A stretch of 64,000 nt of DNA from Clostridia bacterium (lineage in GTDB: Bacteria > Bacillota > Peptococcia > DRI-13 > UBA5745). How positions within the stretch are numbered: the first letter of the stretch is position 1; each line of letters begins with the position of its first letter. Location: the NCBI GenBank assembly GCA_018436095.1, contig JAHDMJ010000012.1, forward strand, positions 1 to 64,000, in the 5' to 3' direction. Positions 52,769 to 57,479 of the stretch are shown piece after piece. The notes beneath the pieces are model-generated. The model searched no databases and had not been told where the DNA came from. It was given only the letters and a program-made list of their open reading frames with translations. Position numbers and translations under genes: made by a program.

Positions 52769-53524
52769 TTACTCTTTGGCTTGCCGGAAACCGGTAGTGA
52801 AATCGGCGGCATAAAGCCGGGAAAGCTCATAATCGTCGCCTAAAAACTCGCCCACCAGAATCAAAGCCGTATTGGTAATGCCGTGAGCTGAGGCCATTGC
52901 CGCCAAAGTGCCCACAGTACCCCGCAGCACCAGCTCCTCGGGCCAGGTGGCCTTGTAGACGATGGCTGCCGGCGTATCCTGACGGTAGCCTCCTTGAATC
53001 AGCTCCCGGCTCAGCTCTTCCAGCAGGGAAGTGCTCAAAAAGATAACCATAGTAGCCCCGTGGGCGGCAAAGGAAGCGATGCTTTCCTTGGCGGGCACAG
53101 GGGTCCGGCCGGCCATGCGGGTGATGATTACGCTTTGGGAAATGCCCGGCAGAGTGTATTCGGCCTGGAGGGCTGCCGCAGCGCCACAGAAGCTGGACAC
53201 GCCGGGACAGCTTTCATAAGAGATGCCTAAGGCCCTCAGCCTGTCCATCTGCTCCCGGATAGCGCCGTAGAGGCAGGGGTCGCCGGTATGAAGCCGGACA
53301 ATGGTTTTGCCTTGGCCATGGGCCTCGGTGATGGCTGCGATGACTTCATCCAAAGTCATTTCGGCGCTGTTGTATACCCGGCAATCCTCTTTGGCGTAGT
53401 CCAGCAAAGCGGGATTAACCAAGGAACCGGCATAGATGATGACATCCGCCTGTTCCAGAAGGTTTTTGCCCCGTAAGGTAATCAAGTCCGGCGCTCCCGG
53501 CCCGGCTCCCACAAAATATAGCAT
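52769..53524 (-). CDS. cbiF: Cobalt-precorrin-4 C11-methyltransferase
   Basis: A 251-residue tetrapyrrole methylase. FVGAGPGAPDLITLRGKNLLEQADVIIYAGSLVNPALL is diagnostic of CbiF/CobM; VRLHTGDPCLYGAIREQMDRL is the SAM site and VPAKESIASFAAHGATMVIFLS conserved. It is separated from cbiD by 225 bp carrying two cloverleaf structures. Confidence 0.95.
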   Translation of the reverse strand: MLYFVGAGPGAPDLITLRGKNLLEQADVIIYAGSLVNPALLDYAKEDCRVYNSAEMTLDEVIAAITEAHGQGKTIVRLHTGDPCLYGAIREQMDRLRALGISYESCPGVSSFCGAAAALQAEYTLPGISQSVIITRMAGRTPVPAKESIASFAAHGATMVIFLSTSLLEELSRELIQGGYRQDTPAAIVYKATWPEELVLRGTVGTLAAMASAHGITNTALILVGEFLGDDYELSRLYAADFTTGFRQAKE

Positions 53525-53580: not shown

Positions 53581-53745
53581 ATATATACTAATCCGCAATT
53601 AAAACTTTCGTTTTAATTTGCCGCAAAAGTGCGGCAGTGGGCAAAGCCCACGCAGATCAGTATATATGCCATTCTGCCTGCGCCCCTTGCGCAGCGGCAA
53701 TCAAAGATTGCCGGATTAAAATAGGGAATATTTTAATCGCAGAAT
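53581..53745. other. Two adjacent four-way-junction (cloverleaf) inverted-repeat elements
   Basis: Element I (53581-53667): a closing stem ATATATACTaATC / GATcAGTATATAT, 12 of 13 paired, encloses three hairpins, at 53595-53621 (AATTAAAAC-tttc-GTTTTAATT, with one bulge), 53620-53635 (GCCGCA-aaag-TGCGGC) and 53637-53651 (GTGGGC-aaa-GCCCAC). Element II (53671-53745): closing stem ATTCTGC / GCAGAAT (53671-53677, 53739-53745) encloses three hairpins with no unpaired base at the junction: 53678-53694 (CTGCGC-ccctt-GCGCAG), 53695-53713 (CGGCAATC-aaa-GATTGCCG) and 53714-53738 (GATTAAAATA-gggaa-TATTTTAATC). The order of arms (AT-rich, CGG-type, GC-rich) is reversed in II, so they are inverted relatives. 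It lies between cbiF and cbiD. Confidence 0.85.
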
Positions 53746-53749
53746 AGTA

Positions 53750-54964
53750 TTACTGCCAGTTTTCCAATAGTTGGGCCACGTTGCCGCTTTCAAATACCGG
53801 GCGGAAGGAACCGGCGCCGGTAAAGCAGATAAAGCCGATTTCTGCATCGGCAGGTATTTGGCGGCTTAAATAAAAGGCGATACGCTCTTTAAGGTCCAAG
53901 GCCACCGCCGCCATCAGCCCCGCTTCTTCAAGCAAGGTCAAGGCCGCTTCCGTAGTGGCGCAATCGGCTATCTGCCGCAAAAGAGGCAAATCGCCGCCGG
54001 CCTTTAAAGCGCAGGTGACCAAGGTTTCCAGCCGCCCGTCGCCGTAACGGGAATGGGTATTCATCAGGCCGATGGCCAATTTGACCAGCTTGCCGATGTG
54101 GCCCGCCAGCAAGATGCGGCGAAAACCGCATTCCACGGCGGCGGCTATGCTGTCGCCGATGAAATTGCTGCACTTGATAATGGTGCTGGTAAAAACGGCC
54201 TCCGGGCCCTCAGGGCCATTCAGGCGGTCCAGCAGAAAGGATTCGCCGTAATTGCCGGGGGTGAGAATAACGCTGCTGCGGCCGGCAGCAGCCAATACCC
54301 GCAGCTCTACCCGGATGGTATCGATGAGGGCGCTGTCGCTCATGGGCTCCACAATACCGCTGGTGCCTAATATGGAGAGGCCGCCGCTAATGCCCAGCCG
54401 GGGATTGAAAGTGCGGGCAGCCAAAGCTTCACCTGCGGGGATGGAGATAACTGCCGACAGGCCGCCGCTGTAACCGGCAGCTTCGCAGACTTCCCGAAGG
54501 GCTTGGGCGATCATTTGGCGGGGAGTGCTGTTGATGGCTGCCATGCCCACAGGCTGGTCCAAGCCCGGTTTCGTCACCCGGCCCACGCCAACGCCGCCGT
54601 CGATGAGGATTGCACCTGAGGGCTCGGGGGTTACCGTAGCGTAAACCAGGATGCCGTTGGTAATATCGGGGTCGTCACCGCTGTCTTTTTTTACGGCGCA
54701 GGTGGCGGCGCCCAGACCGTCTTCCCCTGCTTGCCGGCGGGCCTCCGCCACATCAATGGCGATTTCCGGTCCCTTGGGGGTTTTGATGGTGACTTGCTCC
54801 GGCTTTTGGCCGGTCAAAAGCAGCCAGGCCGCTGCCTTGGCGGCGGCGGCGGCGCAGGTGCCGGTAGTATAGCCGCAGCGCAAATATCTTTGATTGGCGC
54901 TATACCATTTTTTTGTGGTATTTACCATGGCTTGGCCTGTCATATTATCCGTAATATCTCTCAT
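53750..54964 (-). CDS. cbiD: Cobalt-precorrin-5B C1-methyltransferase
   Basis: A 404-residue enzyme of the anaerobic pathway. The opening RCGYTTGTCAAAAAKAAAWLL is diagnostic, with GRVTKPGLDQPVGMAAIN, LGISGGLSILGTSGIVEPMS and LAGHIGKLVKLAIGLMNTHS following. Family length is about 360-380; the N-terminus is slightly long and its Shine-Dalgarno weak. First gene of the minus-strand cluster; no cobalamin riboswitch is seen upstream in the 166 bp to the divergent hydrolase gene. Confidence 0.95.
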   Translation of the reverse strand: MRDITDNMTGQAMVNTTKKWYSANQRYLRCGYTTGTCAAAAAKAAAWLLLTGQKPEQVTIKTPKGPEIAIDVAEARRQAGEDGLGAATCAVKKDSGDDPDITNGILVYATVTPEPSGAILIDGGVGVGRVTKPGLDQPVGMAAINSTPRQMIAQALREVCEAAGYSGGLSAVISIPAGEALAARTFNPRLGISGGLSILGTSGIVEPMSDSALIDTIRVELRVLAAAGRSSVILTPGNYGESFLLDRLNGPEGPEAVFTSTIIKCSNFIGDSIAAAVECGFRRILLAGHIGKLVKLAIGLMNTHSRYGDGRLETLVTCALKAGGDLPLLRQIADCATTEAALTLLEEAGLMAAVALDLKERIAFYLSRQIPADAEIGFICFTGAGSFRPVFESGNVAQLLENWQ

Positions 54965-57136: not shown

Positions 57137-57174
57137 TATGTTGCTTTTTGTTGAAACTAAATATATATTCTCAT

Positions 57175-57350
57175 CAAGTTCCGCATTGGGGCCGTTCCCG
57201 TCAAGAAGACCCCGCCGGATTAAAAGGGAAGTCAGGTGCAAAGCCTGCGCGGTCCCGCCGCCGTAAGAGAAGAATCATATCCAGGAAGCCACTGGGAAAC
57301 CGGGAAGGCGGATATGGTGAAGACGCTCAAGCCGGAAGACCTGCTGTTGA
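57175..57350 (+). promoter_or_regulatory. Cobalamin riboswitch
   Basis: The conserved core is readable in order: AAAAGGGAAGTCAGGTGCAA, AGCCTGCGCGGTCCCGCC then GCCGTAA, then GCCACTGGGAAACCGGGAAGG, and finally the B12 box AAGCCGGAAGACCTGC (57329-57344). It should shut off the downstream cbiK-cbiL genes when adenosylcobalamin is plentiful. About 130 nt separates it from a terminator, in which an anti-terminator may form. Confidence 0.93.
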
Positions 57351-57479
57351 GAAAAAGCAAAGAAATTCTGCGAGAGACGGAATCTGCTTAAGCCGGCGCC
57401 TTCTGTTGGCAGCCGGCAGCTTTTGACCGGCAGCCTGGTGAGAACTGACTTTCCCGGCCAAGGGTCCTTAGTGATAAAC

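Follow-up and report, generated by a model that had tools for sequence, protein, structure and literature searches.

Bacterial non-autonomous miniature transposable elements (MITEs), such as Correia/NEMIS, RUP, ERIC and others, are shorter than 200 bp, devoid of genes and intergenic, carry terminal inverted repeats, duplicate their target and adopt a stable fold (PMC10969869, PMC2229807). Those in print are long stem-loops with at most two arms and a linker, the latter being the case of the Caulobacter CIR repeats, which are built of two separately folding long stem-loops and contain a GANTC motif (PMC2229807). The YPAL/RU-2 element of Yersinia (168 bp; PMC2229807) has internal inverted repeats and is found in empty and filled sites, with duplications of 3-26 bp, near an upstream gene with which it is probably co-transcribed. 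In the REP/REPIN systems, which are accompanied by RAYT, a palindromic unit, a short hairpin preceded on its 5' side by a GTAG or CGTC tag, occurs as singlets and inverted doublets (PMC3116915, PMC8266576), while the IS1031 subgroup of the IS5 family shows a preference for, and a 3-bp duplication of, the sequence TNA (PMC12016507).

The element described here lies in the cobalamin cluster of a Clostridia bacterium (the host genome, G000), within a window of 64,000 nucleotides, which is the whole stretch of DNA that was analysed, and is, with a probability of about 0.87, a copy of a MITE. Copies with unrelated flanks fix the unit, to which no strand is assigned, as the 166 bp at positions 53585-53750; the original prediction, which placed it at 53581-53745, thus identified a real element but not its boundaries. 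Either strand of this sequence, as RNA or DNA, folds into two adjoining four-way junctions, in each of which a closing stem leads to three directly abutting hairpins, as had been proposed. The z scores with respect to dinucleotide shuffles, none of which matched the native fold, range from -8 to -10, being -8.1 for RNA of the + strand (-81.2 kcal/mol), -10.3 for RNA of the - strand and -9.9 for DNA.

Cloverleaf I (53585-53663, + strand), defined by folding and by a covariance model match of 85 bits, has its closing stem at 53585-53596/53652-53663 and its arms at 53597-53618, 53619-53636 and 53637-53651. A 2-bp spacer, AT (53664-53665, no strand), separates it from cloverleaf II (53666-53750, - strand; 65 bits on that strand), whose closing stem is at 53666-53677/53739-53750 and whose arms are at 53678-53694, 53695-53713 and 53714-53738. 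When II is read on the - strand, its arms follow the order seen in I, namely an A/T-rich arm followed by two G+C-rich ones, and it is recognised with an E-value of about 1e-15 by the covariance model derived from I-type sequences, which bears out the earlier view of the two as inverted relatives with mirrored arms. Their description as perfect holds for the arms, which are fully paired in the window, but not for the closing stems, with two mismatches in I and one mismatch plus one G-T in II. Neither the window element nor its family has a match above threshold in Rfam. Elsewhere in the window, a cobalamin riboswitch (Rfam RF00174, 98 bits) is found at 57159-57361 on the + strand, upstream of a second cobalamin gene set.

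According to the original prediction, the lack of a second copy in the genome or its relatives would have made the structure a local accident; second copies are present both in the genome and in a congener. Of the alternatives it named, a mobile extragenic element is the one that the dispersed, near-identical copies with exact ends, the target duplication and the empty sites support. The host genome contains, on other contigs, full twins 98% and 92% identical to the window copy, as well as two single cloverleaves, one complete and one with a large part of an arm missing, and a degraded copy. About 30 more copies, among them no fewer than 14 twins and numerous single cloverleaves, are present in the genome of a congener (G004; Clostridia bacterium isolate SM1-B15.1, contigs of JAHDPO01), both genomes being draft assemblies of many contigs. 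A covariance-model search of 46 genomes of the class limits the family to these two, and BLAST against 60 relatives returned, outside them, nothing except one short palindromic match. A strict 33-base pattern has the congener as its sole match among 84,980 species representatives, a collection that may omit the host genome itself; phage and plasmid collections gave no match to the element, and none of the five pattern matches in viral contigs has a cloverleaf.

The copies fall into twins (~166-170 bp), singles (~80-85 bp) and minimal forms (46-49 bp), to which singles with recombinant outer ends and copies with lengthened arms (about 110 bp) should be added, and the 12-bp outer ends are the sole part that is constant across twin, single, lengthened-arm and one-arm copies. 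Two identical 49-bp mini-copies, perfect palindromes consisting of the ends and one arm, lie 8.4 kb apart in different flanks (L089:925-973 and L089:9323-9371), which suggests that one arm is enough for movement. A seemingly gene-carrying version, in which a TetR gene stands between I and II (G004:C44:167446-168378), was rejected as such, since the two halves are delimited by outer ends independently of each other and the arrangement represents two separate insertions. The host genome also contains another miniature repeat, unrelated to this family, which is ~165 bp long and bounded by the inverted ends CTAGTGCTTTGTGTCCACTAAAAG (L172, G000:C4 about 137829-137987). It is inserted a few bases from the position of a cloverleaf copy of the congener and has partial matches at L108 and L117.

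The sequence shared by copies at unrelated sites runs exactly from ATACT to AGTAT. Exact ATACTNWTCTGC ends number 88 in the congener and 18 in the host genome, as opposed to two in each for the reversed control motif, and on these counts rests the assignment of the left terminal inverted repeat (ATACTAATCCGC, family consensus ATACTAATCTGC; 53585-53596, + strand) and of the right one (ATACTATTCTGC; 53739-53750, - strand). In 33 of 45 boundary pairs the left and right flanking bases agree, a number that none of 1000 shuffles reached (mean 17.6). Position -2 is T in 33 of 37 copies and position +2 is A in 31 of 37, most copies thus standing in the context T-N-element-N-A; the sets of 45 and 37 bounded copies include a few with an inner end taken as the boundary (e.g. 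L018 and L068). In the window copy, comparison of boundaries and flanks among copies identifies the duplicated base N as the T at 53584 on the left and the T at 53751 on the right (neither assigned to a strand), the latter followed by A53752; position 53583 is A in place of the consensus T of the family.

That insertion duplicates the target is shown by empty orthologous sites with a single TNA in the host genome, observed for L069, L093, L095 and L097 and, with one substitution that replaces the A of TNA by G, for L019; at L069 the right-hand target copy of the occupied site has decayed. A duplication of TA is ruled out, the empty sites consisting of a single TNA without an extra TA. The duplication can be read either as 3 bp, TNA, around TACT...AGTA or as 1 bp, N, around ATACT...AGTAT, and seven copies with equal N in a non-TNA context, which keep the terminal A/T, make us lean to the 1-bp reading. 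Among eukaryotic elements, PIF/Harbinger has a comparable preference for, and duplication of, a three-base target, TWA.

The linked transposase that the original prediction envisaged did not come to light with matching ends in either draft genome: among RAYT, IS5-like and rve-type transposases there is no candidate of this kind, the ends of the IS3-like (rve) matches being left out of the comparison. The DDE families of IS5-like type (PF01609, PF13586 and PF13359) are absent from the congener, where the element expanded most; in the host genome PF13586 and PF13359 have no match and PF01609 corresponds to an IS1182-like gene only. This IS1182-like transposase (L178, G000:C4:168970-169314) is split over several frames and is probably a pseudogene. 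Reading inward for ~3.5 kb from isolated ends in both genomes led to decayed remnants or chance matches and to no autonomous element. Both genomes being drafts of many contigs, a multicopy insertion sequence could be missing from the assemblies. Mobilisation would depend on a trans-acting transposase, most probably a DDE enzyme, that recognises the ATACTNWTCTGC ends and inserts the element at TNA.

How the arms vary was studied with separate alignments of types I and II and a covariance model, MAFFT having misaligned the two types. In the resulting alignment, which is fitted to the model and therefore leans towards structure, 909 of 948 arm cells are Watson-Crick, and 11 of the 23 arm pairs exist in at least two Watson-Crick versions differing on both sides. 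Within type I or II alone covariation is weak, the double changes mostly separating I from II. Loops are found in both orientations in the A arm of II (TATTCCCTA/TAGGGAATA, TATGGAATA/TATTCCATA and TATGGAGTA/TACTCCATA) and in the third arm of I (CTTTG/CAAAG). Such inversions between copies are expected of template switching or cruciform processing and not of selection on RNA, so that, together with the Watson-Crick variation on both sides, they point to upkeep of the stems at the DNA level; the DNA-level interpretation already favoured in the original prediction gains from these loops and from the paucity of G-U pairs. The internal arms may be regarded as cargo, with replication slippage and template switching at hairpins accounting for their gain, loss or in-place flipping, and the same processes would keep the stems perfectly paired.

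The palindromes, perfect on both strands, and the loop flips also lend themselves to an explanation in which a recombinase or HUH-type enzyme uses the cloverleaves as single-strand or cruciform substrates, mobility depending on the folded DNA and not on linear repeats, as in REP/REPIN or integron attC. The singlet and inverted-doublet forms recall REP singlets and REPINs, and in the rpsB-tsf spacer the cloverleaves of the two species differ in type and lie in opposite orientation at the identical base (L052:1501-1580 and L094:1041-1125), a difference that reflects either in-place inversion or two insertions. We nevertheless consider this explanation unlikely, because target duplication and TNA preference are unexpected for IS200/RAYT-type enzymes, the minimal one-arm copies retain the ends, and Y1 transposase/RAYT (PF01797) is absent from the host genome, the congener having one IS200-type TnpA with no cloverleaf nearby. 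Equally doubtful is a new class of mobile palindromes, in which an enzyme would recognise the folded four-way junctions and insert at TNA with a one-base duplication, arm flipping being a by-product. A role as substrate of a replication initiator, also suggested originally, finds no support.

As for a MITE, insertions are intergenic at dozens of sites, and they cluster at the 3' ends of genes. In nine of 37 the position coincides exactly with a stop codon, the junction itself forming the TAA or TGA of the adjacent gene. In the window, the TAA of cbiD (53750-53752, - strand; open reading frame 53750-54964, CbiD by Pfam) overlaps the terminal base of the element, the insertion keeping this stop codon intact; next downstream in the cobalamin cluster is a cbiF-like tetrapyrrole methylase gene (52769-53524, - strand; PF00590, E 1.6e-54). 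Having inserted behind a gene, the element probably forms part of the mRNA, in this case between cbiD and cbiF, as a highly folded spacer; if it affects mRNA stability, this would follow from where it lies and would not be the reason for its existence. That it serves the cobalamin operon of the host as a regulatory or mRNA-processing RNA is very improbable: its position within the operon between cbiD and cbiF and the strong fold of the transcribed strand would suit such a function, but other copies are at unrelated genes, copies face either way with respect to the gene (17 versus 8), Rfam has no match, and at the same site the congener is without cloverleaf I and part of II, which also deprives the conserved cbiD-cbiF role once proposed of support. 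Ordinary intrinsic terminators or chance palindromes, to which the location at gene 3' ends might lead one to think, are refuted by dispersed, bounded copies up to 98% identical across unrelated loci, by the empty sites, and by the absence of a terminator-like site inside the element, with a match at chance level only outside it. One copy (L020:1501-1670) sits inside the loop of an apparent intrinsic terminator (AAGCACAACTTACCGGCTT / CAGGGCCGGAGTTGTGCTTTT).

Since the congener has the element at the same cbiD-cbiF site, without cloverleaf I and with an eroded II, the window insertion is older than the split of the two species, and a second host copy (L050) has a remnant at the matching place in the congener. 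At least five insertions of the congener are absent from the host genome. Shared old copies and insertions found only in the congener thus indicate that the family is ancestral and later expanded in one species.

Among known systems, the element agrees with bacterial MITEs in all the general features listed at the outset, but consists of two complete inverted cloverleaves and not of one long stem-loop, and its target is TNA and not TA; among freely accessible papers, no cloverleaf-shaped bacterial MITE and no twin cloverleaves are described. Two separately folding halves with a linker are shared with the CIR repeats, the halves being here four-way junctions. Size, empty and filled sites and a location behind a probably co-transcribed gene recall YPAL/RU-2, compared by published features only, from which 12-bp ends and a fixed TNA target distinguish it. 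The TNA preference is that of the IS1031 subgroup, whose 3-bp duplication would be compatible with the sites, although a 1-bp N duplication beside a conserved A/T gives the same sequence; however, ISLrh ends begin with GAACCTG, as opposed to (A)TACTNWTCTGC here, and neither draft genome yielded an IS5-like transposase. Singlets and inverted doublets of a palindromic unit are reminiscent of REP/REPIN, but the ends are ATACT...AGTAT, with no short hairpin tagged by GTAG or CGTC on its 5' side, the own genome has no RAYT gene, and the target is duplicated. The element has the defining features of MITEs and lacks those of REP/REPIN. It extends the systems described so far by a family of miniature mobile elements with a core of two inverted cloverleaves, whose twin, single and one-arm versions, along with the empty sites, form a natural series bearing on which parts are needed for movement, on how perfect palindromes are kept up, as the loop inversions illustrate, and on why insertions settle at stop codons.
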